From NCBI GenBank assembly GCA_945874225.1, contig CAMCFT010000017.1, positions 20,953 through 84,952 of the forward strand: DNA of 64,000 nucleotides, written 5' to 3'. The DNA is from Flavobacterium psychrophilum. GTDB lineage: Bacteria > Bacteroidota > Bacteroidia > Flavobacteriales > Flavobacteriaceae. The translations under genes were made by a program, and so were the position numbers. The notes beneath the pieces were generated by a model, which had not been told where the DNA came from, did not search any database, and saw only the letters and a list, made by a program, of their open reading frames with translations. Positions 29,477 to 63,387 of the stretch are shown one piece after another (the first letter of the stretch is position 1; every line of letters begins with the position of its first letter).

Positions 29477-29492
29477 TATGATTACAATCATA
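29477..29492. promoter_or_regulatory. Crp/Fnr-type operator upstream of the nosC-nosZ cluster
   Basis: TATGATTACAATCATA matches TATGATTnnAATCATA. The centre (29484.5) is 33.5 bp before TTTG (29518-29521, within GAGATTTG), the expected -7 element, and 63 bp before the start codon of the cytochrome c gene. Confidence 0.7.
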
Positions 29493-29547
29493 ATTGATTA
29501 ACAAACCTATTCGGAGATTTGTAAAAGAAATTTAAAAACCAATTTTT

Positions 29548-30006
29548 ATGTACAAATTATCTTTATTTATTGTTGCACTAGCACTGTTTACTTCTTGTGG
29601 TAAAAAGGAAAATGCCACGGATGACTTTTCAACCGAAAAAACTGCGGATGTGTCTACTTATGATCCAAACAGAGGTATTGGAAAATTCACATCTGTTGAA
29701 TTAGGCGCCACAATTGATGCCGCTATGGCTGCAGAAGGTGAAAAAATCCAGGCTGTTAAATGTTCTGCTTGTCACAAATTGACAGATGAAAAATTAGTTG
29801 GTCCAGGGTGGAAAGGAGTTACATCACGTAACAAACCAGAATGGATCATGAACTTCATTACTAATCCAGATCCAATGATTGACAAAGACCCTAAACTTCA
29901 AGCTCAATTGGAACTTTGTTTGTTGCGTATGCCAAACCAATCACTTTCAGATGTTGACGCAAGAAACGTTCTTGAATATATGCGTCAAAATGACGGTGTA
30001 AAATAA
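29548..30006 (+). CDS. periplasmic c-type cytochrome of the nos cluster
   Basis: A 152-aa lipoprotein (LFTSCGKKE lipobox) with one heme c site, KCSACHKL, and a later LLRMPN methionine as the likely sixth ligand. It lies 33 bp upstream of nosZ in the same direction and shares its operator. It is therefore the likely electron donor to nitrous oxide reductase. Single-heme cytochromes at this place occur in clade II nos clusters. The heme domain is complete. Confidence 0.85.
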   Translation: MYKLSLFIVALALFTSCGKKENATDDFSTEKTADVSTYDPNRGIGKFTSVELGATIDAAMAAEGEKIQAVKCSACHKLTDEKLVGPGWKGVTSRNKPEWIMNFITNPDPMIDKDPKLQAQLELCLLRMPNQSLSDVDARNVLEYMRQNDGVK

Positions 30007-30039
30007 GTAATCAAAAAACCAATTAATAACTAAAATAAT

Positions 30040-32016
30040 ATGAACAATAAATTTTTAAAAGCGACTTTAGCCATTGTCTTGGCTGCCGCATTTTTTAGTT
30101 CCTGTAAACCAAAAAATTCAGGAGACATTGTGAGTGGTGATGCTGCGCAAAAAGCGTATGTGGCACCAGGAAAATACGATGAATTTTACAATTTTGTTTC
30201 GGGAGGTTTTAGCGGACAAATGAGTGTTTATGGTTTGCCTAGTGGAAGATTATTGAGAGTTATTCCTATCTTTTCAGTAGATCCACAAAGCGGTTATGGT
30301 TTTAGTGAAGAAACAAAACCAATGTTGAACACTTCTCACGGTTTTATTCCATGGGATGATCAACACCACGTTGAAATGTCTCAAACTGATGGTGTAGTTG
30401 ACGGTCGTTGGGTTTTTGCCAATGCTAATAACACACCTAGAATTGCTCGCGTAGACTTGAAGACTTTTAAAACAGCTGAGATTATTGAATTGCCAAATAG
30501 TGCAGGAAATCACTCTTCTCCATTTATTACAGAAAATACAGAATATGTGGTTGCCGGAACACGTTTTAGCGTTCCGCCAGATAATGCTAATGGAGATGTG
30601 CCAATCAATACTTATAAACAAAATTTTAAAGGATATTTAAGTTTTGTAAAAGTGGGGAAAGAAGGTCAAATGGATATTGCTTTCCAAATTGAAGCACCAG
30701 GTGTAAACTTTGATTTAAGTCATGCCGGTAAAGGAAAATCTCACGGATGGTTTTTCTTCTCTTGTTACAATACAGAACAAGCCAACACGCTATTGGAAGT
30801 AAATGCTTCTCAAAAAGATAAAGATTTTATTATGGCTGTAAACTGGAAAAAAGCCGAAGAATATATCAAAGCAGGTAAAGGTAAAAAAGTAGCTACAAGA
30901 TATGCTCATAATACTTGGGATGAAAAAACACAAACTGCAAAATCTGAAATTAGAACCGAAGTCTTAGTTTTAGATTCTAAAGAGTTGAAAGACATTTGTT
31001 ATATGATTCCTTGCCCAAAATCTCCTCACGGTTGTGATGTTGATCCTACAGGTGAATACATTGTTGGATCTGGAAAATTAGCAGCGTTAATTCCTGTGTT
31101 TAGTTTCGATAAATTACAAAACGCCATCAAAAACAAACAATTCGATGGAGAATATGACGGAATTCCAGTGATAAAATATGAAGCAGCTTTACATGGTGAA
31201 GTTCAAAAACCAGGTCTTGGACCATTGCACACTGAATTTGACGGAAAAGGAAATGCGTATACCACTTTCTTCGTTTCTTCTGAAGTTGTGAAATGGGATA
31301 TCAAATCTTTAAAAGTTTTAGACAGAGTTCCGACTTATTATTCTGTTGGACACCTTTGTATTCCTGGTGGTGATAGTAGAAAACCTTTCGGGAAATATTT
31401 AATTGCCTATAACAAAATTACAAAAGACCGTTATTTACCAACTGGTCCGGAACTAGCTCAGAGTGCCCAAATATTTGATATTAGTGGAGATAAAATGCAA
31501 TTAATTTTAGATTTTCCAACCATTGGAGAACCACATTATGCACAAGCAGCTCCTGCTGATTTAATTCGAAATAATGGACAGTTGAAATTCTACAAAATTG
31601 AAGACAATCATCATCCTTATGTTGCTAAAGGAGAGAAAGAATCAAAAGTAGTTAGAGAAGGCAACAAAGTTCACGTCTATATGACTTCAATTCGTTCTCA
31701 CTTTGCATCTGATAATATCGAAGGAATAAGAGTAGGGGATGAGGTTTATTTCCACGTTACAAACTTGGAACAAGATTGGGATGTTCCTCACGGATTTGCC
31801 ATAAAAGGAGCTGATAATGCCGAGTTGTTAATTATGCCTGGAGAAACAAGTACATTAAAATGGCTTCCTAAAAAAGTGGGAATAGTTCCTTTCTATTGTA
31901 CTGATTTCTGTAGCGCATTGCACCAAGAAATGCAAGGATACGTAAGAGTATCTCCTGCAGGTAGTAATGTTCCATTAACTTTTAGTTTGGGTACAAATGT
32001 TCCTGCAACTAAATAA
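30040..32016 (+). CDS. nosZ: nitrous oxide reductase, clade II type
   Basis: A 658-aa NosZ. The N terminus is a Sec/lipoprotein signal (AFFSSCKPK) with no twin arginine, as in clade II enzymes. The beta-propeller shows HHVEMSQTDG, PCPKSPHGCDV and LGPLHTEFDGKGNAYTT with CuZ ligands. The C-terminal cupredoxin has CTDFCSALHQEM, the CuA CxxxCxxxHxxxM site. It reduces N2O to N2 in the periplasm. Operon: cytochrome c, nosZ, then a perfect hairpin before the accessory genes. Confidence 0.97.
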   Translation: MNNKFLKATLAIVLAAAFFSSCKPKNSGDIVSGDAAQKAYVAPGKYDEFYNFVSGGFSGQMSVYGLPSGRLLRVIPIFSVDPQSGYGFSEETKPMLNTSHGFIPWDDQHHVEMSQTDGVVDGRWVFANANNTPRIARVDLKTFKTAEIIELPNSAGNHSSPFITENTEYVVAGTRFSVPPDNANGDVPINTYKQNFKGYLSFVKVGKEGQMDIAFQIEAPGVNFDLSHAGKGKSHGWFFFSCYNTEQANTLLEVNASQKDKDFIMAVNWKKAEEYIKAGKGKKVATRYAHNTWDEKTQTAKSEIRTEVLVLDSKELKDICYMIPCPKSPHGCDVDPTGEYIVGSGKLAALIPVFSFDKLQNAIKNKQFDGEYDGIPVIKYEAALHGEVQKPGLGPLHTEFDGKGNAYTTFFVSSEVVKWDIKSLKVLDRVPTYYSVGHLCIPGGDSRKPFGKYLIAYNKITKDRYLPTGPELAQSAQIFDISGDKMQLILDFPTIGEPHYAQAAPADLIRNNGQLKFYKIEDNHHPYVAKGEKESKVVREGNKVHVYMTSIRSHFASDNIEGIRVGDEVYFHVTNLEQDWDVPHGFAIKGADNAELLIMPGETSTLKWLPKKVGIVPFYCTDFCSALHQEMQGYVRVSPAGSNVPLTFSLGTNVPATK

Positions 32017-32032
32017 ATAATTTCTTTAATGT

Positions 32033-32067
32033 AAAGGGAACAAAGTCTCTTTGTTCCCTTTTTTTAT
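32033..32067 (+). terminator. hairpin between nosZ and the NosL fusion gene
   Basis: AAAGGGAACAAAG (32033-32045) and CTTTGTTCCCTTT (32049-32061) form a perfect 13-bp stem followed by T residues. It may stop or weaken readthrough so that nosZ is made in excess over the accessory genes. Confidence 0.8.
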
Positions 32068-32077
32068 ACCAATAGTT

Positions 32078-35962: not shown

Positions 35963-36334
35963 ATGAAAACAGATATTAAAAACAGGGCAGATATTGAGCA
36001 GCTTGTCAATGCTTTTTATGTAAAAATTAAAGCTGATGAAGCTATTAGTTATTTTTTTATAGAAGTTGCTAATGTGAATTGGGAAGTCCATTTGCCTAAA
36101 GTGTGTGATTTTTTTGAAAACATTTTGTTTTCCACAGGGGATTATGATGGAAATCCTATGGATACACACCGAGAACTTAATAAAAAAAGCACGGTAAGTC
36201 CAAATCATTTTAAGCGTTGGAATACGCTTTTTGACACGACAGTCGATGATTTATTTGTTGGTATAAAAGCAGATGAAATTAAGCAAAGAGCAAACAATAT
36301 TTCTGCAGCAATGATGCAAAAAACATTGAGCTAA
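35963..36334 (+). CDS. group III truncated hemoglobin
   Basis: A 123-aa globin. DIEQLVNAFYVKIKADEAISYFF is helix A/B-like, WEVHLPKVCDFFENILFSTGDYDGNPMDTHREL covers C to E, and SPNHFKRWNTLFD contains the proximal histidine. These traits mark group III truncated hemoglobins, often linked to NO or O2 chemistry. It closes the nos operon and is followed by a strong terminator. A role in NO handling is inferred. Confidence 0.88.
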   Translation: MKTDIKNRADIEQLVNAFYVKIKADEAISYFFIEVANVNWEVHLPKVCDFFENILFSTGDYDGNPMDTHRELNKKSTVSPNHFKRWNTLFDTTVDDLFVGIKADEIKQRANNISAAMMQKTLS

Positions 36335-36418: not shown

Positions 36419-36973
36419 TTATTTTGGAAGTAACACATCACCTATAACGTGAATTATACCGTTTGATGTTGGTATCGAAGCCACGATTTCTGAACCATTG
36501 ACATAAGTTTTATCACCTTTTTTAGTGATTTTTACTTTCTTTCCATTTACCATTCCAAATTCTTGACCGTCTTGCATATATTCTATTTTTAGTACACCCA
36601 CATAAGTGTGATAGCCTAAAATATCAACAAGTGCATCTTTGCTTTCTGGTTTTAATAAACCTTCTACAGTTCCTGCAGGAAGTTTATCAAAGGCGGCATT
36701 TGTTGGCGCAAATACGGTAAATGGTCCGGCATTGCTCAAAGCGTCTACTAAACCTCCCGCTTTTACAGCAGCTACAAGGGTAGTGTGATCTTTGCTTCCG
36801 GAAGCAACTTGAACAATGTTTGGAGCAGAGTTCTCGTCTTTAACAGCAGATTGTCCTGCTCCGGGAGTTTCTGTGTTTTCGCTTTTAGCCTCGGTTGTGG
36901 CTTCGCTATTTTGCTTGCATCCAAAAGCGGCAAATAAACAAGCGACTAACAATAATTGAATTGGTTTTCTCAT
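36419..36973 (-). CDS. fasciclin (FAS1) domain lipoprotein
   Basis: A 184-aa lipoprotein (LFAAFGCKQ lipobox) with a Glu/Ser/Thr linker and one FAS1 domain: HTTLVAAVKAGGLVDALSNAG, PFTVFAPTNAAFDKLP, VDILGYHTYVGVLK and NGIIHVIGDVLLPK. FAS1 domains mediate adhesion or binding. The gene has its own copy of the operator found before nos and nor genes, so it probably belongs to the nitrogen-oxide programme rather than to adhesion alone. Confidence 0.9.
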   Translation of the reverse strand: MRKPIQLLLVACLFAAFGCKQNSEATTEAKSENTETPGAGQSAVKDENSAPNIVQVASGSKDHTTLVAAVKAGGLVDALSNAGPFTVFAPTNAAFDKLPAGTVEGLLKPESKDALVDILGYHTYVGVLKIEYMQDGQEFGMVNGKKVKITKKGDKTYVNGSEIVASIPTSNGIIHVIGDVLLPK

Positions 36974-37028
36974 AATTAAAATACTTAAGTTTTATAGGAC
37001 AAAGCACTTAATTCCCAAACATTTATTT

Positions 37029-37044
37029 TATGAGTGTAATCATA
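37029..37044. promoter_or_regulatory. Crp/Fnr-type operator upstream of the fasciclin gene
   Basis: TATGAGTGTAATCATA. On the minus strand TTTG lies exactly 33.5 bp from the centre (37003-37000), and the start codon is 63 bp from the centre. It overlaps the stop codon of the upstream membrane protein gene. Confidence 0.65.
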
Positions 37045-38272
37045 AAGGAGGATTTTTTTTAACTTTTTTTATTGAAAAATAAGCAGTTAATACAATTCCA
37101 ATGAATATAATAATGGCAATTCCAAAAAGTATTTCATTTACATAAGGAATGAGTGTATAACTAAAAGCTGCAATACCTTGAAGAGCTAAAACAATTTCGT
37201 TTAAAAAGACTCCAATAGAGAATATAAGTACTCCGTATTTTATTTTTTTGGAAATAAAAACTAAATGATTGGCATAGATATAAAACAATAAAAACAAAGT
37301 AATTATTGCCAATAAAATAAGATGTAGATAAGCAATGACAATGGGTCTGAATCCAAAGGCCAACTGGCTGATAATTGGAACGGTAGAGCCCAATTGAAGT
37401 AATAATTTTATACTCAAAGCAAAGCCAATAAACAACAAGATGTATCGTAGTAAAGGCGAATAATTTTCTAAAGAATTTCTACGGGTTTTCAATATAATCC
37501 ATAAAAATTTGAACCAGGCAAAAACCTGAATTAGTGCTGCAAATACTGCAATTACATATAGCCAAAGGGGCAAATCCAGCCAAAGTATGGACAAAAGATA
37601 AGCGGGAATACAAGCTATTGCAAACAATTTAAAGGAAGTTTTGTAAAAAGGATGTTCTGATTTTTGAAGGTTTAAAAAACCAAAAATTAACCCCATACAA
37701 GCAAAGAAAAACCAACCATTGTACTGAAAATGCAAATAATAATATATAGAAGACAAATATAAATCCTGAACAAAATCTTTGGTTGCCATCATATATGCCA
37801 AATAAAAGGTTCCTAAAGAAGAAATAATATTAAAAAAAATTGCCGCTTTAAACCATCCTTTTGACAACAAATTGTCATCCAATAGTTTTAAATCCTTGAT
37901 GAATTGGTAACCAAAAAAATAAGCTACAAATATAGATGCTGTCGAAAAAAATATGGAATACAATCCGTAGCCTTCAATAATAAAGAAAATGAGCATTCCG
38001 TAGGAACAAATTAAATTGGCTATAATTATTTTTTTGTATTTATTTCCCTGAAAGTCAGCTATTTTTGTTTGAAGATAATATACCATCAACACCATTAAAG
38101 TGTGGCTAACCCAACCGGCAAAACCAAAATGAGAGTGAGAGTGCTGTAGATGTTTTTGATCAAAATGGGGAAATTCAAAACCTATTTTATAGCGCATCAA
38201 AACGCCAAGTGAAGCAACAATACAAAGATTAAATAAGGAGAATTTTAGCCAAAATTTGATGTTTAACTTCAT
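37040..38272 (-). CDS. polytopic membrane protein, heme-copper-oxidase/NnrS-like
   Basis: A 410-aa protein with about 11-12 membrane helices. Histidine-rich motifs stand at helix boundaries: LQHSHSHFGFAGWVSHTL (about 42-59), YYYLHFQYNGWFFF (about 177-190) and YLHLILLAIITLF (about 315-327). The HxHxxxxGW pattern recalls subunit I of heme-copper oxidases and NO reductases or NnrS-type heme-copper membrane proteins, but the full metal-ligand set is not evident. It overlaps the Crp/Fnr gene by one base (TAATG) and is therefore co-translated with the regulator. Function unknown. Confidence 0.65.
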   Translation of the reverse strand: MKLNIKFWLKFSLFNLCIVASLGVLMRYKIGFEFPHFDQKHLQHSHSHFGFAGWVSHTLMVLMVYYLQTKIADFQGNKYKKIIIANLICSYGMLIFFIIEGYGLYSIFFSTASIFVAYFFGYQFIKDLKLLDDNLLSKGWFKAAIFFNIISSLGTFYLAYMMATKDFVQDLYLSSIYYYLHFQYNGWFFFACMGLIFGFLNLQKSEHPFYKTSFKLFAIACIPAYLLSILWLDLPLWLYVIAVFAALIQVFAWFKFLWIILKTRRNSLENYSPLLRYILLFIGFALSIKLLLQLGSTVPIISQLAFGFRPIVIAYLHLILLAIITLFLLFYIYANHLVFISKKIKYGVLIFSIGVFLNEIVLALQGIAAFSYTLIPYVNEILFGIAIIIFIGIVLTAYFSIKKVKKNPPL

Positions 38273-38865
38273 TAATAATATATTTTGTGATTGATGATTT
38301 CTACTTTATTTGCTTCATTCATTTTAGTAAAAACTCTTATAACTGTTTCTACTCTTAATCCAGTATGATTGGCAACTTCTTGGCGTGTATACGGAATTAG
38401 AGTTTTCTCGGAACTGTTCCCTGATTTTTTCTTATAAGAATTTAAAAAAGCGATGATTCTAAATTCAGGTTTTTGATTGATAATTTCCTTTGATGTCCTT
38501 GATTTTGAATGAATTTTTTTGGCAAATAAAATTAGAAAGTCTTTTTGAATGGTTGGATATTCATCCAAAATTTTTAAAAATTTATCCTTAGATAATTTTA
38601 AAATGGTACTGTCCTGCATCGTTATTGCTTTTGAAGGGTAAGTTTCATTAATAAACAAAGGAGGTTCACCAAAACTATCTCCATTGCTAAAAAGCCCTTG
38701 TGTAAACTCTTTTCCTTCTTCATTAGAATTATACATTCGGACACTTCCATCTAAAATTTGATAATAAAAATAGGCCACCTCGTCTTCGTCAAAAACAATT
38801 TCATTTTTTTTATATTTTTTTGCAACGGCACCCCAAGAATAAAGTAAATCTAAATCTATTTGCAT
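38272..38865 (-). CDS. Crp/Fnr-family transcriptional regulator
   Basis: A 197-aa protein with an effector-binding domain (about 15-115), a dimerisation helix and a C-terminal winged helix: YTRQEVANHTGLRVETVIRVFTKM, recognition helix near 170-182. It has no cysteine, so it cannot carry the Fnr iron-sulfur cluster; a heme/NO-responding DNR-like mode is possible but not shown. The recognition helix has E173, I176 and R177 at the places of Fnr E209, S212 and R213. It stands in the nos-nor region beside copies of a shared palindromic operator. Confidence 0.9.
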   Translation of the reverse strand: MQIDLDLLYSWGAVAKKYKKNEIVFDEDEVAYFYYQILDGSVRMYNSNEEGKEFTQGLFSNGDSFGEPPLFINETYPSKAITMQDSTILKLSKDKFLKILDEYPTIQKDFLILFAKKIHSKSRTSKEIINQKPEFRIIAFLNSYKKKSGNSSEKTLIPYTRQEVANHTGLRVETVIRVFTKMNEANKVEIINHKIYY

Positions 38866-38929: not shown

Positions 38930-38937
38930 CAAATTTA
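38930..38937 (-). promoter_or_regulatory. -7 element (TAAATTTG) of the crp/fnr gene
   Basis: On the minus strand this is a full TAnnTTTG match. It lies 34.5 bp from the operator centre (one base more than the other promoters) and about 65 bp upstream of the regulator start. It indicates autoregulation. Confidence 0.55.
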
Positions 38938-38959: not shown

Positions 38960-38975
38960 TATGACCAAAATCATA
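38960..38975. promoter_or_regulatory. Crp/Fnr-type operator between divergent regulator and copper operon
   Basis: TATGACCAAAATCATA. One operator stands between two divergent TAnnTTTG elements, at 38930-38937 (minus) and 38997-39004 (plus). Confidence 0.68.
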
Positions 38976-38996: not shown

Positions 38997-39004
38997 TATA
39001 TTTG
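38997..39004 (+). promoter_or_regulatory. -7 element (TATATTTG) of the copper-uptake operon
   Basis: A full TAnnTTTG match; its TTTG begins 33.5 bp after the operator centre. It ends only four bases before the GTG start at 39009, so the transcript may be leaderless. Confidence 0.55.
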
Positions 39005-39008
39005 CATT

Positions 39009-39383
39009 GTGAAAAAAATAGTATTCTTAATATCGTTGTTTATGTTACTAAAACCAGGCCTTCCGGTTATAGACTACATTGTTAATTATGAATATATTTC
39101 TAAAGAACTTTGTGTTAATAAGGCGAAACCAAAAATGCATTGTAATGGTAAATGTCACTTAATGAAAGAACTTGCCAAAGCTTCCGAAAATGAAAAACCC
39201 ATTTCTTCTGATAAAAAAAATGTCTCTCAAGAATTCGAAATATTATATTTAGAAAATATACAATCTTTAAGAATTAAACCAGTGTTTTTTTATAAACAAC
39301 TAAAATTCAATAGGAACTATTCTAATTTATACTTTCGTTTGAATAGTACTTTAGTTTTTCGTCCGCCAATTTTCATTTCTTAA
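39009..39383 (+). CDS. small Cys/His/Met-rich membrane or periplasmic protein
   Basis: A 124-aa protein starting with GTG at 39009. An N-terminal hydrophobic stretch (KKIVFLISLFMLLKPGLPVIDYIV) is followed by a likely metal-binding cluster: C35, M43, H44, C45, C49, H50 and M52 (AKPKMHCNGKCHLMKEL). The C terminus is rich in aromatic residues. Proteins of this type stand before TonB receptor genes in Flavobacteria. With the next two genes it forms a probable copper-uptake operon. Confidence 0.65.
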   Translation: MKKIVFLISLFMLLKPGLPVIDYIVNYEYISKELCVNKAKPKMHCNGKCHLMKELAKASENEKPISSDKKNVSQEFEILYLENIQSLRIKPVFFYKQLKFNRNYSNLYFRLNSTLVFRPPIFIS

Positions 39384-39467
39384 TTTACTCGTTTTTTTAC
39401 GCCAATTTTTTCGATAGGAATACTATCGGAAAGGTCTTTTATTATCAAATTTAAAAAAAAAATAAAA

Positions 39468-40316
39468 ATGAAAATTTTAAGAATATTAACATTCGTTTTA
39501 GCAACCATTTTTGCCTCATGTACAAATAATGATACTCCAACAGTTAATGAATTAGATGGATTAACTAAAGTACAAGAAATTACAAACACCACGCACACCA
39601 TAGAAGTTTATTCTTCTACAGGAGTTTTAGAACAAGGCTATAACGCCATTTCTTTTCGGATTAAAAATACAACTACAAATGAATACGAAAAAAGTGCTTC
39701 AGTTACTTGGGCTCCTTTAATGTATATGACATCTATGCAGCATGCGTGTCCGTATTCTGTTGTGACAAAAACTTTAGATAAAGAGACTTTATATAATGGT
39801 TATATCGTTTTTCAAATGGCCGAAAACGCTACTGAATATTGGGAGCTTGCTATAAATTACACTATTAATGGAACTGCTTTTACTGCAAAAAGCCGAATCG
39901 CTGTTCCTAAGTCAACAAAACAAAGAGTTGCCACGATTACCGGAGCGGATGGTGGAAGATATATTTTAGCATTAATTGAACCAAAAGGTCCAAAAGTAGC
40001 TTTAAATGATATGACTGTTGGCGTTTTTAAAATGAAGGATATGACTATGATGCAGTTCCCCGTAGTCGATAATTTTAAAGTTAAAATTGATCCAAGAATG
40101 CCAAGTATGGGAAATCATACTTCACCTAATAATGTAGATTTAACTCAAATTGCTCTAGGGGGGTTTTATCAAGGAAAACTTGCTCTAACGATGACCGGTT
40201 TATGGAGAATTAACCTGCAACTTTTAAATGCATCTGATGTGGTTCTTAAAGGTGAAACTATCGTTAATACAGATCCTTCAAGCATAAGCAGTCTTTATTT
40301 TGAAATAGAGTTTTAA
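39468..40316 (+). CDS. Met-rich lipoprotein, YtkA-like, probable copper binding
   Basis: A 282-aa lipoprotein (TIFASCTNN). Two repeated beta domains are visible, each with clustered Met, His or Cys: WAPLMYMTSMQHACP (about 81-95), then KMKDMTMMQFP and RMPSMGNHTSP (about 185-215), and a closing FYQGKLALTMTGLWRINLQL strand set as in YtkA-like domains. The positions suggest Cu(I) binding at the cell surface. It precedes the TonB receptor gene, separated by a palindrome. Confidence 0.7.
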   Translation: MKILRILTFVLATIFASCTNNDTPTVNELDGLTKVQEITNTTHTIEVYSSTGVLEQGYNAISFRIKNTTTNEYEKSASVTWAPLMYMTSMQHACPYSVVTKTLDKETLYNGYIVFQMAENATEYWELAINYTINGTAFTAKSRIAVPKSTKQRVATITGADGGRYILALIEPKGPKVALNDMTVGVFKMKDMTMMQFPVVDNFKVKIDPRMPSMGNHTSPNNVDLTQIALGGFYQGKLALTMTGLWRINLQLLNASDVVLKGETIVNTDPSSISSLYFEIEF

Positions 40317-40327
40317 TAAATAGTATT

Positions 40328-40355
40328 CTTTGCCAAAGTTTAAACTTTGGCAAAG
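40328..40355. repeat. 28-bp perfect palindrome
   Basis: CTTTGCCAAAGTTT and its complement meet without a loop. It shares CAAAGTTnAAACTTTG with the nosL-nosD hairpin at 33094-33126, so both belong to one repeat family; it may also act as a terminator or attenuator. Confidence 0.65.
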
Positions 40356-40374
40356 ATAATTTTACAATTTTTAT

Positions 40375-42390
40375 ATGAAAAACTTAATGTTTTTTTTAGG
40401 GATGTGTTTTCTTATTCCCATAGTTATTATTGCCCAAGAAAAACCTTCGGATACATTAACTTCAAAAGAATTAAACGAAGTGATTGTGATTGGAAAAAAA
40501 GGACAATTATACCAAAAACAAGGCAAGCCATTGGCGACTATTGATGAATATTTACAACAGTCTGGTAAAGTAGATATGATAAGACGAGGCAGTTATGCCT
40601 GGGAACCAATTGTCAACAATATGACTACCGAAAGAACGTTGATAACCATTGACGGAATGCGGATTTTTGGAGCTTGCACAGATAAAATGGATCCCATAAC
40701 TTCCTATGTCGAAGTTTCTAATTTATCCGAAGCTACTATAAAATCAGGGCAACAAGGCGCTTGTCACGGAGCAACAATCGGTGGTTCTGTGGATTTAATT
40801 AGAAACCGAAGCGGATTTTCAAACTTAGGTTGGGACACCACCATTAATGCTGGTTTTGAAACTAATAGTCAACAAAAAATCATTGGCTCAGCTGTTAATT
40901 ATGCTGATAAATCGTTTTATGTTGATACTGATTTTATGTTTAGAGATGCTAATAATTATGCCGATGGAAAGGGGCAGGAAGTGTTGTTTTCGCAATTTAG
41001 AAAATTCAATATTTCAGCAACTTCTGGTTTTTCTTTTGATAAAAATAAACTGATGGAAGCTTCAATTATCTATGATAAAGCGACTAATGTTGGTTATCCT
41101 GCTTTGCCAATGGATGTTTCTTTGGCTCAAGCATTAATCACTTCCCTGAAATTTGAATATGTTCCAAAATCAGTAAAGATTGCTTCGAATCTCGCAATGA
41201 CAAATTGGGAAACCAAAATTTATTACAACACCATCACCCATAAAATGGACGATACTAAGCGGCCTTCGGTTCCAATTCATATGGATATGCCGGGTTGGAG
41301 TGATACTTTTGGATTTTATTCCAAAGCAAAAGGAGTTCTCAGAAGTCATCATTTTCTGGCTGATTTGAATTCGTTTTACAATCGTTCCGTTGCTGAAATG
41401 ACAATGTATCCGGCTGATTCCAATGAAAAATTGATGTTTATGTATACTTGGCCTAATGTGAAAACGATTTATACAGCCTTGTTTTTAGAAGACAATATTG
41501 GCTTGAATTTGAATTCGAGTTTGAAATTTTCTGCAAGTTTGGCAAACCATTTTAATCAGGTTGCCAGCCAGTTGGGATTAGAAAGTTTGCAGATTTTTTA
41601 TCCCAATATGAAAGACAGCAAAAATCGAATTTTGCCAAGCATTTCTTCCAATTATTCTTATGATAAAAATGGTTTTTCTTATGGCTTTGGTTTGGCTTAT
41701 GGTGAACGTGCTCCATCGGTTTCTGAAGGATATGGATTTTATTTATTCAATAGTTTTGATCGTTATGATTACATTGGAAACCCGGAATTAAACAACGAAA
41801 ATTCAGTTGAAGGAAGCGCCTCCATTGGCTATAAAACACAAAAATGGAGTACAAAAATTTCGTCTTCCTATTTTCATATTTCCAATTATATTGTGGGAAA
41901 ACCAGATGCGAAATTGGTTCCAATGACAATTGGTGCAAGCGGAGTAAAAATTTATACAGCACTTGATTTTGCTGCAATTTTCAATGCAGATTTAAATTGG
42001 GAATACCTGTTTTCTACTGATTTTAAATGGAAAGGACAATTGGTTTACAGCTATGGAAAAGACTTTGAAGAAAGAAATTTACCATTTATAAGTCCGTTGC
42101 GCTATTCGTCTTCTTTGGATTATAAAAAAGGAAAATTCACATCTGCAATTGCTGTTCAGGGAAATGCAACACAAACTCAACACAGCCCTTTTTATGGGGA
42201 AGACAGAACGCCTGCATATGCCATTTTGAATTTTGATTCAGGATATTCGTTTCATTTTGAAAAAAGTATCTGGAATATAAAAGTAGGAATTGAAAACATT
42301 TTCGACACCTATTATTCAACTTTTTCAGACTGGAACAATATTCCCAGAAAAGGGAGGAATTTCTTTTTGAATGTTGCCTTTAATTATTAA
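40375..42390 (+). CDS. TonB-dependent outer-membrane copper receptor, OprC/NosA-like
   Basis: A 671-aa receptor with a signal peptide (VIIAQE), a plug domain (about 30-145) and a barrel ending in GRNFFLNVAFNY. The plug carries GACTDKMDP with C101 and M105, a CxxxM like the copper site of OprC, and QQGACHGATIGGSVDL. The barrel loop HMDMPGWSD and the MTMYPADSNEKLMFMY stretch are methionine rich. NosA/OprC imports copper for NosZ. It is third in the operon controlled by the shared operator. Confidence 0.8.
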   Translation: MKNLMFFLGMCFLIPIVIIAQEKPSDTLTSKELNEVIVIGKKGQLYQKQGKPLATIDEYLQQSGKVDMIRRGSYAWEPIVNNMTTERTLITIDGMRIFGACTDKMDPITSYVEVSNLSEATIKSGQQGACHGATIGGSVDLIRNRSGFSNLGWDTTINAGFETNSQQKIIGSAVNYADKSFYVDTDFMFRDANNYADGKGQEVLFSQFRKFNISATSGFSFDKNKLMEASIIYDKATNVGYPALPMDVSLAQALITSLKFEYVPKSVKIASNLAMTNWETKIYYNTITHKMDDTKRPSVPIHMDMPGWSDTFGFYSKAKGVLRSHHFLADLNSFYNRSVAEMTMYPADSNEKLMFMYTWPNVKTIYTALFLEDNIGLNLNSSLKFSASLANHFNQVASQLGLESLQIFYPNMKDSKNRILPSISSNYSYDKNGFSYGFGLAYGERAPSVSEGYGFYLFNSFDRYDYIGNPELNNENSVEGSASIGYKTQKWSTKISSSYFHISNYIVGKPDAKLVPMTIGASGVKIYTALDFAAIFNADLNWEYLFSTDFKWKGQLVYSYGKDFEERNLPFISPLRYSSSLDYKKGKFTSAIAVQGNATQTQHSPFYGEDRTPAYAILNFDSGYSFHFEKSIWNIKVGIENIFDTYYSTFSDWNNIPRKGRNFFLNVAFNY

Positions 42391-44992: not shown

Positions 44993-45008
44993 TATGACAA
45001 TTATCAGG
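44993..45008. promoter_or_regulatory. Crp/Fnr-type operator upstream of the 604-aa orphan
   Basis: TATGACAATTATCAGG: the left half is exact and the right half has one change. The centre (45000.5) is exactly 33.5 bp before TTTG (45034-45037, in GATATTTG), and the start codon is 70 bp from the centre. Confidence 0.6.
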
Positions 45009-48495: not shown

Positions 48496-48548
48496 TTTTT
48501 TATAAAATTTAGTAACTATTATTAAACTACTGTGTTTTTGTTAATAAA

Positions 48549-49019
48549 TTAATTTTCATTTTGTAAATACATATTTTCCTCTTCGCCATTGCTTAAAAAA
48601 GTATCTCCTGAATTAAAACCCAATGCGAGTTCCTTGAGATTGGTGTTTTCAAGCATATATACTAGTTCTTTTCGGATTCCTTTGAACTTGTTATATAGCG
48701 GACAAGGACGTTCTTCAGAGCAATGATTTATTCCCAAACCACAACTCGTAAAAATTGAATCACCATCAATTGCGATTACAATTTGAGCAAGGTTAATTTG
48801 GTTTATATTCTCTTTTGGAATTTCAAAACCGCCATAAATTCCTTGAATGGAATGTACAATATTATTTTTAACTAAAATCTGGAGAATCTTAGCGGTAAAA
48901 GATTTGGGAGAAACAATCTTATCAGCAATATCTTTTACGGTAACTCTTTTGTTCTGATAGGATTCTGACGCAATAAAAATGGAAGCACGAATTGCGTATT
49001 CACAGGTTTTTGAAAACAT
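48549..49019 (-). CDS. Rrf2-family regulator (NsrR/IscR-like), copy 1
   Basis: A 156-aa Rrf2 protein almost alike to its downstream neighbour: YAIRASIFIASESYQNKRVTVKDIADKI, then QGIYGGFEIPKENI and FTSCGLGINHCSEERPCPLY with three cysteines. The longer C terminus (NGEEENMYLQNEN) is not shared. The pair arose by tandem duplication. It follows nrdG by 31 bp on the same strand and is probably co-transcribed with the anaerobic ribonucleotide reductase genes. Confidence 0.88.
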   Translation of the reverse strand: MFSKTCEYAIRASIFIASESYQNKRVTVKDIADKIVSPKSFTAKILQILVKNNIVHSIQGIYGGFEIPKENINQINLAQIVIAIDGDSIFTSCGLGINHCSEERPCPLYNKFKGIRKELVYMLENTNLKELALGFNSGDTFLSNGEEENMYLQNEN

Positions 49020-52033: not shown

Positions 52034-52765
52034 TTATTCTTCGTTGGAGAAAAATTTCTCTAAGGCTTTTGCTTTTGGAAACAGGATATTGCTTTCGAGA
52101 TGAATGTGTTTGTGCAAATCCTTTTCAAATTCCTCTAGCATTGCAAAGGTCACCCGATAGGTTTCGCAAGCATCTTCAGGCAGAGTGTAATTATTAGTCA
52201 GCAAAGCTATAGAGCGAAAACGTTCCCCTTCATTATCGTGTTCCGCCATCATTGCGGCAATGGGATTTTTTACAGTTCCAAAATGAGGTTTGCCAATAGA
52301 ACCATGACTTTTTGTGGCATTTATCATTCTATTGATGAAAGGAAATAAAACCAATTCTTCTTTTTTCATATGTGGAGCTAATTCTCCTGCGCTGGCTTTA
52401 AATAGTTTAGTGATTTCGAATAATTCAGGATGATTGCTTCCGTGAACGTTACACAATTTATCCAAAAGCTGGATAATTACCGGAGTTTTTTCTTCAACAA
52501 AACGGTGGTGCGTTTTCTCGATATAATCTATCAATAAATCCAAAGTCCAAGAATTGAAATCGATTTCAGAATCATTCTTTGTTGCTAGAACAGCATTTAA
52601 CTCATTTAATAATTGCGCTTCATTTATATTTTTCTTGGTGCAAACTTCATCGATAGTTCTTTGTCCTTTGCAGCAAAAATCAATTCCATATTTTGTGAAG
52701 ATTGCGGCAGTTCTAAAATCGTGAGCTACAAAATCTCCAATCGTAGTTTTTTCTTGTATGTTCAT
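52034..52765 (-). CDS. ric: iron-sulfur cluster repair di-iron protein (Ric/ScdA/YtfE)
   Basis: A 243-aa protein. The N-terminal ScdA_N domain has DFRTAAIFTKYGIDFCCKGQ; the hemerythrin-like domain has H and E ligands in KTHHRFVEEKTP, HGSNHPELFEI, MKKEELVLFPFINRM, MAEHDNEGERF and HLESNILFPKA. Ric restores iron-sulfur clusters damaged by NO. It is divergent from norC across a gap with two copies of the operator, so it is induced together with NO reductase. It heads the strand that continues to nrdD. Confidence 0.93.
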   Translation of the reverse strand: MNIQEKTTIGDFVAHDFRTAAIFTKYGIDFCCKGQRTIDEVCTKKNINEAQLLNELNAVLATKNDSEIDFNSWTLDLLIDYIEKTHHRFVEEKTPVIIQLLDKLCNVHGSNHPELFEITKLFKASAGELAPHMKKEELVLFPFINRMINATKSHGSIGKPHFGTVKNPIAAMMAEHDNEGERFRSIALLTNNYTLPEDACETYRVTFAMLEEFEKDLHKHIHLESNILFPKAKALEKFFSNEE

Positions 52766-52863: not shown

Positions 52864-52879
52864 TATGATTTAAATCATA
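52864..52879. promoter_or_regulatory. Crp/Fnr-type operator nearer ric
   Basis: TATGATTTAAATCATA is a perfect 16-bp palindrome, the best copy in the window. Its centre is 106 bp upstream of the ric start. No TTTG stands at the exact distance on the ric strand, so activation geometry for ric is less clear than at the other sites. Confidence 0.62.
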
Positions 52880-52994: not shown

Positions 52995-53010
52995 TATGAT
53001 TGTAATCATA
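52995..53010. promoter_or_regulatory. Crp/Fnr-type operator upstream of norC
   Basis: TATGATTGTAATCATA. The centre (53002.5) is exactly 33.5 bp before TTTG at 53036-53039 (within GTACTTTG), which predicts transcription from about 53044 and a 70-base leader before norC. Confidence 0.72.
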
Positions 53011-53113
53011 TGTCACAAAATATTTCGAAGCGTACTTTGCCTAAAATAAATAAGGGATGATTTTGTTCTTTATTTAAACAAGTAAATTTATTAACTAACA
53101 AAAACTGATAATT

Positions 53114-53548
53114 ATGCTTTCAAAATCACAGGCAAGAGCATTTTTTCTGGGAGGAACCCTGGTCACCTTTTTAATTTTTATAGGGCTGACCATTTATTCG
53201 TTTATGCCCAGAAACGATCAAACTAACTACGCTTCAATTGACAAGAATGTAGTAAGAGGAAAACAAATTTGGGAATCCAACAATTGTATGGGTTGTCACA
53301 CCATTCTGGGGGAAGGAGCTTATTATGCTCCGGAATTAACTAAAGTCATTGATCGTCGAGGGGAGGCTTATGTAAAAGTGGTCTTGATGTCTAAAGAACC
53401 TTGGCAGCTAAGAGGACGGAAAATGGTTGCTTATGGAATGAATGAAGCCGACGCTAATGCTGTTGTTGCTTACTTCAAATGGATTGGCAAAATCGACTTA
53501 AATGGTTTTGACCGCGTGGTTTCTCCTTTATCTAAAGTTAAAAATTAA
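53114..53548 (+). CDS. norC: nitric oxide reductase subunit C
   Basis: A 144-aa membrane-anchored cytochrome c: an N-terminal helix (about 11-30, LGGTLVTFLIFIGLTIYSF) and one heme site NCMGCHTIL (C58, C61, H62), with methionine ligand candidates near RKMVAYGM. It passes electrons to NorB. It is the first gene of norCB and is only 11 bp before norB. It is placed under a matching operator. Confidence 0.96.
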   Translation: MLSKSQARAFFLGGTLVTFLIFIGLTIYSFMPRNDQTNYASIDKNVVRGKQIWESNNCMGCHTILGEGAYYAPELTKVIDRRGEAYVKVVLMSKEPWQLRGRKMVAYGMNEADANAVVAYFKWIGKIDLNGFDRVVSPLSKVKN

Positions 53549-53559
53549 AATTATATATT

Positions 53560-54897
53560 ATGAAATATAAATCACAAAAAGTAGCCTATTGGTTTTTTGC
53601 ATTGTGTATGCTTTTGTTCTCCTTGCAAATTATCTATGGCTTTATTATGGGCTTTGACCGAATAGGATTGCAAGGATTACACGATATTGTTCCATTTAAT
53701 GTAGCAAGAGCGGTTCATACTAATTTATTGGTCGTATGGTTGTTAACAGGTTTTATGGGCGCGGCTTATTACATTATTCCTGAAGAAGCTCAACGCGAAT
53801 TAATTAGCGTAAAATGGGCTTATGTCCAGCTTATTTCGTTGGCGGTTGTTGGTGTTGTGGCCGTTGTAGGTTTTCACTTCAATCATTGGGAAGGTAGAAA
53901 ATTCCTTGAAATCCCAAGAGAATTAGACTTTTTAGTTGTAATAAATGTATTGCTTTTCCTGGGATTAATTTTAGGAACTCTTTTCAAAGGTAAACGTCAA
54001 ACCACGACAGCTTTAGTGTTGTCAATGGGATTGCTGTTTGCGGCATTGCTTTATTTACCTGGAATGATTTGGTTTGACAGTCAGGTTACGGACTCATTTT
54101 TCCGTTGGTGGGTAGTTCACTTGTGGGTTGAGGGTGTTTGGGAATTAATTATGGGAGGTATTCTTTCTTTCTTATTAATCAAATTGACTGGAGTTGACAG
54201 AGAAGTGATCGAAAAATGGTTGTACGTAATTGTTGGATTAACTTTCCTATCAGGAGTTTTAGGAACAGGACATCACTACTATTATATAGGTGTAAACAAA
54301 ATTTGGTTGGTTGTAGGAGGTATTTTCTCCGCTTTGGAACCTTTAGCCTTCTTGGCAATGGCATTATTCGCTATCAATATGTATCGAAAAGGTGAAAAAA
54401 GTCATCCCAATAAGATTGCTTTATTCTGGACAATTGGTTCGGCCGTAGTTTCCTTTATTGGTGCTGGATTACTTGGTTTTGCCCACACTTTGCCACAAGT
54501 AAACATCTACACACACGGAACCTTGGTTACGGCAATGCACGGTCACTATGCATTTTGGGGTGCTTATGCAATGATAGTTTTTGCTATAATTAGCTACGCA
54601 CTTCCAAATATTACGGGTAGAAAACGTTACGATAGTACACAAGGCCATATGGCTTTCTGGTTGTCCAATATAGGAATTCTGGGAATGACGGTAGCCTTTG
54701 GTGTTGCTGGTGTTGCTCAGGTTTACTTGGAACGAAAAATGAAAATGGAATTTATGGAAGTTCAAAACGAAATCGCCGTTCACTTTGTTGTACTTCTTAT
54801 TTGTGCCACATTGTTTACAGTGGGAATCAGTATGTTTATCTATGATTTTATAAAATATGGACTGCCTTCTGATGAGGCTTTGGACGAAACCAAATAA
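53560..54897 (+). CDS. norB: nitric oxide reductase subunit B
   Basis: A 445-aa heme-copper-family NO reductase with about 12 helices. It shows VHTNLLVVWLLTGFMGAAYY (low-spin heme His), HLWVEGVWELIMGG with the NOR-specific glutamate, GTGHHYYYIG (FeB His pair), and TAMHGHYAFWGAY (heme ligands). Together with NorC it is a cytochrome c-dependent enzyme reducing NO to N2O. Length is normal for the short cNOR type. Confidence 0.97.
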   Translation: MKYKSQKVAYWFFALCMLLFSLQIIYGFIMGFDRIGLQGLHDIVPFNVARAVHTNLLVVWLLTGFMGAAYYIIPEEAQRELISVKWAYVQLISLAVVGVVAVVGFHFNHWEGRKFLEIPRELDFLVVINVLLFLGLILGTLFKGKRQTTTALVLSMGLLFAALLYLPGMIWFDSQVTDSFFRWWVVHLWVEGVWELIMGGILSFLLIKLTGVDREVIEKWLYVIVGLTFLSGVLGTGHHYYYIGVNKIWLVVGGIFSALEPLAFLAMALFAINMYRKGEKSHPNKIALFWTIGSAVVSFIGAGLLGFAHTLPQVNIYTHGTLVTAMHGHYAFWGAYAMIVFAIISYALPNITGRKRYDSTQGHMAFWLSNIGILGMTVAFGVAGVAQVYLERKMKMEFMEVQNEIAVHFVVLLICATLFTVGISMFIYDFIKYGLPSDEALDETK

Positions 54898-59714: not shown

Positions 59715-61205
59715 ATGGAAAAACCATTTTATTTTACTAATTCTTGCAAAGTAATTGCTTTCGCTTTATTTGCATCCGCGAGTTTTTTGTCTTGCGATAA
59801 AAAAGAAGAAAAGCATAACGCTGAATATTACGAAAACATCACAGTCGAAGGTCAAAAAGAGGCTGAACTAACTGCCCCTCCATTTGTGCCAAAACCAGTA
59901 GGAGATCGTGCAGCGACAAAATTAGTCGTAAATATGGAAATCAAAGAAATAGAAGGTGAGATGGTTGATGGAGTAAAATACAATTATTGGACATTTGGCG
60001 GAACCGTGCCAGGTAGTTTTATAAGAACTAGAGTAGGCGATGAGGTAGAATTTCATTTGAAAAATCATCCTGACAACAAAATGCCACACAATATCGATTT
60101 ACATGCAGTAACGGGACCTGGCGGAGGAGCATCATCATCTTTAGTAGCTCCTGGGCATGAAAAAGTGTTTAATTTTAAAACTCTAAATCCAGGGCTGTAC
60201 GTCTATCATTGTGCTACAGCACCGGTTGGAATGCACATTGCCAACGGAATGTATGGTTTAATATTAGTAGAGCCAGAAGGAGGATTGCCTCCGGTGGACA
60301 AAGAATACTACATTATGCAAGGGGATTTTTATACCAAAGGAAGTTACGGAGAGCAAGGTTTTCAACCCTTTGATATGAATAAAGCAATAAAAGAGGAACC
60401 AGACTATGTAGTTTTCAATGGTAAAGTTGGAGCGGTAACTGGAGATAATGCCATCACTGCCAAAGTCGGAGAAACAGTTCGTTTGTATATGGGTAATGGT
60501 GGTCCTAATTTGGTTTCTTCTTTTCACGTAATCGGGGAAATTTTTGACAAAGTTCATATTGAAGGAGGTGATATGATTAACGAAAATGTTCAAACCACTT
60601 TGATTCCTTCGGGAGGTGCAGCAATTGTTGAGTTCAAAGTAGATGTTCCAGGAACTTTCATTTTGGTCGACCACTCTATTTTTAGAGCTTTTAATAAAGG
60701 GGCTTTAGGAATGCTAAAAGTAGAAGGCGCAGAGAATAAAAAAATCTATTCTGGAACAACGCAAGAAGGAATTTATTTGCCAGAAGGAGGTACAATTCAG
60801 AGTATGCCAAAAATAGCTCGTGCTGTAAAAAGCACAGCTGCCAAAACAGTTCCTGAACAAATTAAATCAGGGAAAGAATTGTTTGGAAGAACTTGTTTTG
60901 CCTGTCACCAATCAGAAGGACAGGGAATTCCCAATGCGTTTCCACCATTGGCAAAATCTGATTTCTTGAATTCTAATTCAGATAGAGCCATAGGGGCAGT
61001 ATTGCACGGATTGAGTGGTGAAATTACCGTGAATGGTAAGAAATTCAACAATGTAATGACCAGTCAAAATTTGACTGATGAAGAAGTAGCCGATGTTTTG
61101 ACCTATGTGTACAACAGTTGGGGTAATAACAAAACCGTGATTACGCCAGCAAAAGTAAAAGCAGTTAGAGCAAAACCAGCACCAAAACAAGAATCTGTAC
61201 ATTAA
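59715..61205 (+). CDS. nirK: copper nitrite reductase with C-terminal cytochrome c domain
   Basis: A 496-aa lipoprotein (SFLSCDKKE, Cys 27) with two cupredoxin domains: [32 protein letters not shown] (type 1 Cu His, Cys, His, Met), [16 protein letters not shown] and [18 protein letters not shown] (type 2 Cu His). A cytochrome c domain follows with CFACHQSEG (C394, C397, H398) and [20 protein letters not shown]. It reduces nitrite to NO in the periplasm. The C-terminal heme domain is nearly the same as the next gene's product. Confidence 0.95.
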
Positions 61206-62412: not shown

Positions 62413-62446
62413 TTATTTTCGAAATCACGTTTAAAATACAAATAAA

Positions 62447-63085
62447 ATGAAATCAGACTTCACCCAAAAATCGAATATTAATTCAAATAACAGAAGATGT
62501 TTGCTATTTGTTTTGCCTTTTTTAGTGCTTTTTGCAATGCTTTATAGCTGTGGTAAAAAAGAAACGGCTGTGAAAGAGAAACCTATTTCGGATTTGTCTA
62601 TTTACAATTTGCCGTCAAAATGGACGAATCAAGACGGCAAGAATATCGAGATGAAGGATTTGAAAGGAAAAGTGCTGGTAATGGTTATGATTTACACTTC
62701 TTGTAAAGCCGCTTGTCCAAGGCTAGTAGCCGATATGCGCAATATCGAAAGGCGATTGCCTCAAGATGTCAAGGAAAATGTCCAACTCGTCTTAGTAAGT
62801 ATTGATCCAGAAGTTGACACTCCCAAACGATTGAAATCTTTTGCCATCGAAAATAAAATGGACGGAAATCAATGGGTTTTCTTGCGTTCCACCCAAGAAA
62901 ATACCCGAGAATTTGCAGCAGTGCTAGCAGTAAATTATAAAAAAGTTTCACCAATGGATTTTTCGCATTCCAATATTATAAGCGTTTTTAATACTGAGGG
63001 AGAATTGGTGTTTCAACAAGAAGGATTGGGTGTAAACTCTGATGCAACAATTCAAAAAATTACAGAAGAAGCGCAAAAGGATTGA
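62447..63085 (+). CDS. SCO1/SenC copper chaperone lipoprotein
   Basis: A 212-aa lipoprotein (AMLYSCGKK) with a thioredoxin fold: MVMIYTSCKAACPRLVADM holds the CxxxC copper ligands, LVSIDPEVDTPKRLKSF follows, and DFSHSNIISVFN has the third ligand His. SCO proteins deliver copper to CuA or to other cupredoxin sites; here NirK, NosZ or NorE-like oxidase parts are possible clients. It is last in the nirK-cytochrome-NirV-SCO series. Confidence 0.92.
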   Translation: MKSDFTQKSNINSNNRRCLLFVLPFLVLFAMLYSCGKKETAVKEKPISDLSIYNLPSKWTNQDGKNIEMKDLKGKVLVMVMIYTSCKAACPRLVADMRNIERRLPQDVKENVQLVLVSIDPEVDTPKRLKSFAIENKMDGNQWVFLRSTQENTREFAAVLAVNYKKVSPMDFSHSNIISVFNTEGELVFQQEGLGVNSDATIQKITEEAQKD

Positions 63086-63124
63086 TTTATATTTTTAAAA
63101 ACTGAGTTTAATACTTTTAATAAA

Positions 63125-63152
63125 AATGGTTCCTTTTGGAGCTATTTTTTTG
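63125..63152 (+). terminator. terminator after SCO
   Basis: AATGGTTCC (63125-63133) pairs with GGAGCTATT (63138-63146) through two wobble pairs, with a TTTT loop and a following T run. Confidence 0.6.
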
Positions 63153-63310
63153 CAAAATTCATCAATATTTTTTTTATTAAGATCCGATTCCTGTTTTCTA
63201 AAAATCACAGCGGTTTAATAGACTTGAATGCAAAAATTCATATGTTCTGATTATGTTGATTTTAATTTCTTTTGATACGATTTAAAATATTTGTTGGGTA
63301 ATTACTAGAT

Positions 63311-63326
63311 TATGATTTGAGTCATA
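63311..63326. promoter_or_regulatory. Crp/Fnr-type operator upstream of nrfH
   Basis: TATGATTTGAGTCATA. The centre (63318.5) is exactly 33.5 bp before TTCG (63352-63355, in TAATTTCG) and 69 bp before the nrfH start. Confidence 0.65.
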
Positions 63327-63387
63327 AAAAAAGGGTAAAATCTATTTTAATTTCGCACTAAAATAAAGCTAATAATAAAAATTAATT

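Follow-up and report, generated by a model that had tools for sequence, protein, structure and literature searches.

A palindromic operator at fixed distance from the -7 box and a candidate CRP/FNR-family regulator of denitrification genes in Flavobacterium

Which protein, acting at which sites, controls the genes for denitrification and nitric oxide (NO) defence that lie together in a stretch of 64,000 nucleotides of Flavobacterium psychrophilum DNA (assembly GCA_945874225.1, contig CAMCFT010000017.1, positions 20,953 to 84,952; hereafter the window)? Regulation in nitrous oxide (N2O) reducers outside the Proteobacteria is called little known in PMC6264515. An initial annotation of the window described seven sites of the form TATGATTnnAATCATA, took them to define a denitrification regulon and suggested as its regulator the protein encoded at 38272–38865 (-), the product of a crp-like gene. 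We conclude that the sites before the nos and nor genes are likely to be operators of this protein, a CRP/FNR-family activator that would act from a centre at -41.5 on denitrification and NO genes. The conserved core of the operator is ATGAT-N4-ATCAT.

Operator sites and their distance from the -7 box

All seven palindromes are present where the initial annotation had placed them, and the spacings that it gave proved exact. The first T of a TTTG lies 33.5 bp from the dyad centre at five promoters, those of nosC–nosZ (operator TATGATTACAATCATA with an exact core, 29477–29492, +; box GAGATTTG, 29514–29521, +), the fasciclin gene (37029–37044, -; box GTGCTTTG, 37000–37007, -), the copper operon (38960–38975; box TATATTTG, 38997–39004, +), the gene of a 604-residue protein (44993–45008, +) and norCB (TATGATTGTAATCATA, 52995–53010, +; box GTACTTTG, 53032–53039, +). 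At nrfH (TATGATTTGAGTCATA, 63311–63326, +; box TAATTTCG, 63348–63355, +) it is TTCG, not TTTG, that begins at this distance. The site at 38960 is common to the copper operon and crp, and on the crp side (-) the box (TAAATTTG, 38930–38937) stands 34.5 bp from the centre. The ric site (TATGATTTAAATCATA, 52864–52879, -) is an exact palindrome, with TATG at 35.5 bp. The fasciclin operator overlaps the TGA stop codon of the upstream gene for a 410-residue protein.

The palindrome itself is barely enriched in the window. With up to three mismatches it occurs 81 times where 64.8 matches are expected (1.25-fold), a count reached in one of 100 shuffles, and palindromes without a box were not used as evidence since they hardly exceed chance. 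Palindromes that have no more than one mismatch and carry TTYG at 33.5 bp, in contrast, occur five times, whereas 200 dinucleotide shuffles averaged 0.015 and never exceeded 1; the expectation that the motif would exceed its frequency in random DNA is thus borne out for the spaced sites and scarcely for the palindrome. When three mismatches are allowed, the spaced matches number seven (mean 1.99 and maximum 7 in 200 dinucleotide shuffles), one of which, at 41650, is intragenic and lies outside the seven annotated sites. Because the number of these matches equals the shuffle maximum, the site before the 604-residue protein gene (TATGACAATTATCAGG; three core mismatches and an A..T centre, see below) is not significant alone, and it was not accepted as an independent member of the set from the window alone.

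A search of genome contigs with an alignment of the regulator yielded 72 loci, 52 of them titled Flavobacterium and most others unclassified Bacteroidota; the weakest, L072, is a partial match at 28% from Romboutsia. In these loci and the window, with each palindrome counted once per strand, 34 of 82 exact palindromes have TTTG at 33.5 bp and eight at 34.5 bp, the mean being 1.22 per spacing over 50 spacings, and for palindromes with one mismatch in the 73 sequences the corresponding figures are 102 and 51 of 312, with a mean of 5.3. The spaced pattern matched 100 times in 44 whole genomes selected for holding the regulator, compared with four matches to the backward pattern, and 108 times compared with five, at up to one mismatch, in eight close genomes. 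It is present in 150 of 299 genomes of the genus and in 45 of 295 genomes of the class (94 matches versus two backwards), the latter set including a few from the genus itself, G002 among them. Two public contigs of metagenome-assembled genomes, labelled Lentimicrobium sp. (L001) and Bifidobacterium breve (L037), carry a Flavobacterium-type locus and are probably mislabelled or derived from contaminated bins.

For each target, homologues of 30% identity or more were taken from the fetched loci, and their distinct upstream regions were searched for a site carrying no more than one mismatch and for a box at 32.5–34.5 bp; as the loci were fetched partly for holding the regulator or the pattern, the rates are upper estimates, for which the zero rates provide a control from the same loci. 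The site precedes nosC in 53 of 56 upstream regions, 52 of them with the box, and for orthologues at least 60% identical site and box are both present in 49 of 49. Every site found is accompanied by the box at the copper operon (37/45), the fasciclin gene (43/61), a hemerythrin-PAS gene (6/8) and norC (9/10, and 9/9 at 60% identity or more). The crp gene has the site in 51 of 83 upstream regions and site plus box in 45, ric has the site in 33 of 41 (28 of 28 at 60% identity or more), the 604-residue protein gene has it in 11 of 39, nine with the box, and a globin gene (35963–36334) has both in three of 56. For nadA, nirK and nrfH there were too few upstream regions for such a count; in G176, TATGATTTGAATCATA with TTCG at 33.5 bp precedes an nrfH 91% identical to that of the window.

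Genes internal to the operons lack the spaced site in the relatives: nosZ (0/58), nosL (0/23), nosD (0/40), nosF (0/49), nosY (0/49), the YtkA (0/40) and TonB (0/34) genes and norB (0/9). The gene of the 410-residue protein has a site in one of 64 upstream regions. A gene divergent from nosC (28850–29362) has the site in 26 of 28, owing to the common intergenic region, and since the spaced box is present in only two of 28 we did not count this gene among the targets. In the footprint of nosC promoters with the 33.5-bp spacing (n = 37), for which sites had been chosen by their palindrome core and TTYG columns, conservation amounts to 1.71 bits per column in the palindrome, 1.71 in the box, 0.58 in the spacer and 0.59 in the upstream flank.

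A map of transcription start sites in F. psychrophilum places a TAnnTTTG box at -12 to -5 (PMC9723704). From this placement and the 33.5-bp spacing it follows that TTTG occupies -8 to -5 and that the dyad centre falls at -41.5, which implies that the operator would be centred at the position of a class II activator, or at -42.5 in the case of crp. The -41.5 geometry proposed earlier thus agrees with the conserved spacing in relatives and with the box placement reported for Flavobacterium in that map. The TA half of the box, counted over distinct sites, is scarce before nosC (2/39), the fasciclin gene (1/41), norC/cytochrome c (1/11), hemerythrin-PAS (0/5), nadA (0/5) and the 604-residue protein gene (0/8), and these six promoters are predicted to depend on the activator. 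It is frequent before crp (24/35), the copper operon (32/33), ric (12/13), Rrf2 genes (8/8), nrfH (2/2) and a tetratricopeptide repeat (TPR) gene (3/3), and also before ccoN (7/7), hemN (7/8), korA (8/8), fdx (3/3) and ccoS (2/2); hypA has it in none of two sites and fixI in one of two. In 27 of 33 distinct copper-operon promoters exactly 4 nt separate the -7 box from the start codon (38997–39011, +, in the window), and a leaderless message is therefore predicted.

Operator classes and the candidate regulator

Sites were sorted by the two inner positions of the dyad centre, using distinct sites for each target, with T..A centres designated class A. In the window the operators of nosC, the fasciclin gene, norCB and nrfH belong to this class. 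T..A centres are found at nosC (38/39), the fasciclin gene (39/41), ric (10/13), norC/cytochrome c (9/11, a group that takes in cytochromes of 25–33% identity), the 604-residue protein gene (8/8), hemerythrin-PAS (5/5), nadA (5/5) and nrfH (2/2), so that on the denitrification side 116 of 124 distinct sites are T..A and none is A..T. A..T centres account for all 24 sites at hemN (8/8), ccoN (7/7), fdx (3/3), fixI (2/2), hypA (2/2) and ccoS (2/2). Outside both sums are korA (A..A in 7/8), crp (T..A 16, T..G 13, T..T 3 and A..T 3; n = 35), the copper operon (T..A 18, C..A 12 and A..A 3; n = 33), Rrf2 (T..A 6, C..A 1 and A..A 1; n = 8), the TPR gene (T..T 2 and A..A 1; n = 3) and sites whose downstream gene was unplaced. 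One representative each of hemN, ccoNO, ccoS and hypA scores above its NCBIfam cutoff, as does that of korA for the 2-oxoacid:acceptor oxidoreductase alpha model; the fixI representative is a heavy-metal P-type ATPase just under the subfamily cutoff, and fdx is a 4Fe-4S protein by Pfam.

The genes hemN, ccoN, ccoS, fdx and korA share both the core and the 33.5-bp spacing with the denitrification genes, and we rejected core and spacing as a mark of denitrification alone, since hemN, ccoN, korA and others carry both. Of the operator first described as that of a denitrification regulon, the core and the spacing are therefore common property of an FNR-type regulon, and it is the T..A centre that marks the class, with exceptions.

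The protein encoded at 38272–38865 has the sensor domain and the Crp-type helix-turn-helix of the CRP/FNR superfamily (PF00027, 69.5 bits with a cutoff of 27.5; PF13545, 30.5 with 27; PF00325, 22.9 with 21), and the putative site has the dyad form of this superfamily, two 5-bp half-sites around a 4-bp centre (ATGAT-N4-ATCAT). The recognition helix of the protein reads GLRVETVIR. It contains no cysteine, and matched orthologues have from none to six, no cysteine being among the invariant columns of the alignment; the N-terminal cluster cysteines of FNR proper are thus missing. The operator of FNR proper is TTGATnnnnATCAA, and the half-sites here are ATGAT. CRP, the cyclic AMP-dependent protein, has an RExxGR helix and binds TGTGA half-sites; the window protein has VETVIR and ATGAT, and scores 51.8 bits with the NCBIfam CRP model, whose cutoff is 266. 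A PADLOC scan of the regulator gave no match.

In four loci (L194, L202, L203 and L204) an FNR-like paralogue whose N terminus has a C-x2-C is encoded no more than about 3 kb from A..T-type sites. Its score with the Fnr model, 90.7, is under the cutoff of 228, so that an iron–sulfur cluster can only be presumed. The helix of this paralogue reads GTATESCIR in all 11 matches of at least 50% identity, and that of the class A regulators reads GLRVETVIR in 83 of 89 (three unreadable, three not listed) and in 11 of the 12 that are 35–50% identical, although loci of one genome may recur in these counts. Both share E..IR, where DNR of Pseudomonas aeruginosa has E..SR. Positions 180, 181 and 185 of CRP are given as DNA contacts in PMC1274295.

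We put at about even chances the proposal that Bacteroidota possess two parallel CRP/FNR regulons with a common TATGAT-N4-ATCATA core and the -41.5/-7 TTTG geometry, separated by the inner base pair. The T..A centre would be read by cysteine-poor GLRVETVIR proteins at denitrification and NO genes, and the A..T centre by the cysteine-bearing GTATESCIR FNR at microaerobic genes, while the common E..IR signature would account for the ATGAT half-site. No rule linking E..IR to ATGAT was seen among the described CRP/FNR motifs.

Across the genus, the strict class A pattern is present in 60 of 299 genomes. It occurs in 51 of the 81 that have a regulator of 52% identity or more (two of the 81 being partial matches) and in nine of the 218 without one (Fisher p 5e-27; as the genomes are related, this and the following p-value overstate independence and are indicative only). 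The nosZ genes of the genus fall into two lineages, one 80–96% identical (75 genomes) and the other 66–68% (nine genomes). The regulator is found in 72 of the 75 lineage 1 genomes compared with nine of the 224 others (Fisher p 6e-55), and no close regulator is found in the nine lineage 2 genomes (L267–L275); nine of the 81 regulator genomes have no nosZ. Taken together, site class, nosZ lineage and helix lend strong, though correlative, support to the suggestion that the 38272–38865 protein is the regulator.

A one-to-one link between class A sites and a regulator of at least 52% identity was rejected, since nine of the 60 site-bearing genomes have none. In seven of these nine the best match is a more distant paralogue (E 1e-41 to 1e-48), the helix of which was read in one, G060 (L279); the other two, G084 and G088, show no regulator of this kind. 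The genes beside the sites in the seven are two NO-inducible flavohemoproteins (L219 and L222, above cutoff), two norC, one globin and two unplaced. The suggestion that the distant paralogue stands in for the regulator is a weak one, since genomes that have no class A sites often carry that paralogue as well; in L219 and L222 it may control a form of the regulon devoted to NO detoxification.

In the mechanism that we propose, a dimer of the 38272–38865 protein would occupy the operator, centred at -41.5 (-42.5 at crp) and adjoining RNA polymerase, and the polymerase would be recruited to promoters with the Bacteroidota -7 TTTG. The promoters of nosC, the fasciclin gene and norC, being without the TA half, should need it. 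Its targets would be nosCZ for N2O reduction, norCB for NO reduction, ric for the repair of NO damage and nrfH for nitrite ammonification, together with the copper operon, probably for import of copper to copper enzymes, and the fasciclin gene. Through the common site at 38960, crp itself would be a target, together with the gene of its 410-residue partner. The signal is more likely to be NO or another nitrogen oxide than oxygen, because the regulator lacks cysteines for an iron–sulfur cluster. A separate, cysteine-bearing FNR paralogue would serve the microaerobic genes through sites that agree with these in core and spacing and differ in their A..T centre. Flavobacterium, and more widely Bacteroidia, thus probably has a denitrification and NO-defence regulon with an operator of its own at the class II position.

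Points against the proposal and alternative readings

Several observations weigh against this assignment. In the window, ric has no TTTG or TTCG at the 33.5-bp spacing and the site of the 604-residue protein gene is weak. Among relatives the box accompanies ric in only 15 of 41 upstream regions (11 of 28 at 60% identity or more), three of seven distant nosC genes (30–60% identical) are preceded by both site and box, and the site is absent from 18 of 61 fasciclin, 32 of 83 crp and 28 of 39 upstream regions of the 604-residue protein gene, and from the one nirK upstream region of a relative that passed the filter. A..T centres occur at norC in G224 and at relatives of the 604-residue protein gene (51% identical) and the fasciclin gene (56% identical). 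The strict pattern is missing from 30 of the 81 regulator genomes; in the seven of these that were fetched, nosC has a site with no or one mismatch and a box at 33.5 or 34.5 bp. Of the nine nosC genes of nosZ lineage 2, five are preceded by a site with one mismatch or none (four with the box), two by a site with two mismatches and a box at 33.5 bp, and two by no site, and their centres are mixed, T..A in some and A..T in others. To the relatedness of the genomes noted above must be added that the co-occurrence of regulator and targets may in part be co-inheritance of neighbours.

It is possible, if doubtful, that each of the two operator classes is recognised by both proteins, with affinities that differ, so that the window regulon would respond to the conjunction of low oxygen, through FNR, and NO, through the CRP-type protein. 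The common core, the A..A sites of korA and the A..T centres at the single norC, 604-residue and fasciclin relatives speak for such an arrangement, and the sharp split of centres in most gene families speaks against it. Less likely still is that the cysteine-bearing FNR paralogue found near cco genes occupies the sites, in which case the denitrification genes would answer to oxygen and the 38272–38865 protein would have other targets. The core and spacing shared with hemN, ccoN, ccoS, fdx and korA fit this, as do the A..T centres at nosC of some lineage 2 genomes and at three distant or single relatives of window targets; against it stand the division of centres according to target, T..A in 116 of 124 on one side and A..T in 24 of 24 on the other, and the way in which class A sites track the cysteine-poor regulator.

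We consider it very improbable that the sites are repressor operators of the NsrR/Rrf2 type, even though two Rrf2 genes lie at 48064–49019. Rrf2 regulators are reported as enriched in clade II nos scaffolds, mostly of Bacteroidota (PMC6264515), and Rrf2 genes have the site in 13 of 42 upstream regions (12 with the box, mostly at 32.5 bp), the two Rrf2 queries matching largely the same loci (34 in common). ATGAT-N4-ATCAT, however, matches CRP/FNR operators in half-site length and spacing, the NsrR motif being given as gATGyAT-N5-ATrCATc (PMC1274295), and -41.5 is the position of an activator; we rejected the NsrR/Rrf2 identity on the shape of the motif. That the sites arose by chance in a sequence rich in A and T, or are ancestral promoter DNA not under selection, is scarcely credible, for although the window is 34% G+C and loose palindromes occur there at near the expected frequency, the shuffles and backward-pattern controls contradict it for spaced sites with at most one mismatch, as do the zero rates at operon-internal nos, copper and nor genes and the low conservation of the spacer.

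Neighbouring genes, known systems and significance

The proposed activator and its operators can be set beside several described systems. The half-site of DNR and NnrR is TTGAT. NO-responsive DNR/NnrR regulons of Proteobacteria, as described in PMC1274295, resemble that proposed here in having a CRP/FNR protein without the FNR cysteines and nor, nos and NO-defence genes as targets. In the window, sites lie before norC, nosC and nrfH, with none before nirK; a nirK relative in G230 (L236) is preceded by a site with a T..T centre. DNR of P. aeruginosa (3dkw) is the third-best PDB sequence match to the regulator (6.6e-10). The differences are the ATGAT half-site, Ile in place of Ser in the helix (VETVIR compared with PETFSR), the additional probable copper-import operon, fasciclin and heme-copper-fold proteins, and the -7 TTTG promoter. 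With FNR and the Flavobacterium FNR paralogue the system shares 5-bp half-sites with a 4-bp centre, the predicted -41.5 position, E..IR and, for the paralogue, the ATGAT core, whereas the paralogue has the N-terminal C-x2-C (in the four sequences read) and A..T centres, and the window protein no cysteine and T..A centres.

HcpR of Bacteroides and Porphyromonas is likewise a CRP/FNR regulator of nitrogen-oxide stress in Bacteroidota. Its common HcpR2 motif is GTAACnnnnGTTAC, that of P. gingivalis differing, and the regulon described in PMC1274295 is hcp only; operator and regulon are thus unlike those found here, and no hcp was seen among the window proteins scanned with Pfam/NCBIfam-type models. 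In Nitrosophilus labii, which also has clade II nosZ, Crp/Fnr sites are proposed to start 48–49 bases before the starts of napA, norE and nosB (PMC11539149), but the motif is TTGA-N6-TCAA, the regulators are others and the organism is not one of the Bacteroidota. The present operator is not described in the open-licence literature searched, which does not prove its absence from print.

The gene nosC (29548–30006, +; PF00034) encodes a c-type cytochrome and opens the nos operon, in which nosZ (30040–32016, +) encodes an N2O reductase of the Sec-dependent, clade II type (NCBIfam TIGR04246, 932 bits with a cutoff of 625). The norC and norB genes (53114–54897, +; PF00034 and PF00115), ric/ytfE for a di-iron protein of iron–sulfur cluster repair (52034–52765, -; TIGR03652 above cutoff) and nrfH for the small subunit of cytochrome c nitrite reductase (63388–63990, +; TIGR03153 above cutoff) complete the proposed nitrogen-oxide targets, and the fasciclin-domain protein is encoded at 36419–36973 (-; PF02469). 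The copper operon (39009–42390, +) comprises genes of a 124-residue Cys/His protein, a YtkA-like protein (PF13115) and a TonB-dependent receptor that scores 118.7 bits with TIGR01778, below its cutoff of 472, and the copper label is therefore only a lead. At 59715–61205 (+) lies the gene of a nirK-like multicopper oxidase to which a cytochrome c domain is fused at the C terminus, and its upstream region in the window has no spaced site. The two Rrf2-family genes stand side by side on the reverse strand, adjoining anaerobic ribonucleotide reductase genes.

The gene of the 410-residue membrane protein (37040–38272, -) overlaps the crp stop codon by a single base, the last of that codon being its first, and its homologues lie directly behind crp in the listed loci of relatives. 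Pfam gave no match for the protein. Its structure model (predicted local distance difference test score, pLDDT, 87) has the heme-copper-oxidase fold by Foldseek, with NorB and CcoN (3o0r_B and 8smr_E) matched at a template modelling (TM) score of 0.76 by query length. His46, His181 and His317 are invariant in 42 aligned sequences, and we take them to fit the heme ligand positions of the heme-copper-oxidase family; the His–His pair for the second metal was not seen in these 42. From the model, the protein is possibly an NO-binding heme protein, and this partner of the regulator may help to sense NO or to remove it. For the 604-residue protein (45071–46885, +) Pfam gave nothing convincing. It has six invariant cysteines and at least 7,999 homologues, the named ones among the matches listed being hypothetical or uncharacterised, and a low-confidence model (pLDDT 67) offers a weak lead to a PfaD-like flavin mononucleotide (FMN) oxidoreductase (Foldseek E 7.8e-5, TM 0.26).

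Bacteroidota often carry clade II nosZ and, if the proposal is right, the regulator linked to nos would be the switch hitherto missing from the picture of clade II N2O reduction in the phylum. Operator, spacing rule and candidate regulator would together allow the genes switched on during N2O and NO respiration to be predicted from genomes, and the control of N2O removal would become testable in a large group of environmental bacteria. The two operator classes and two helix variants would then represent a natural case of cross-talk avoidance by paralogous regulators.

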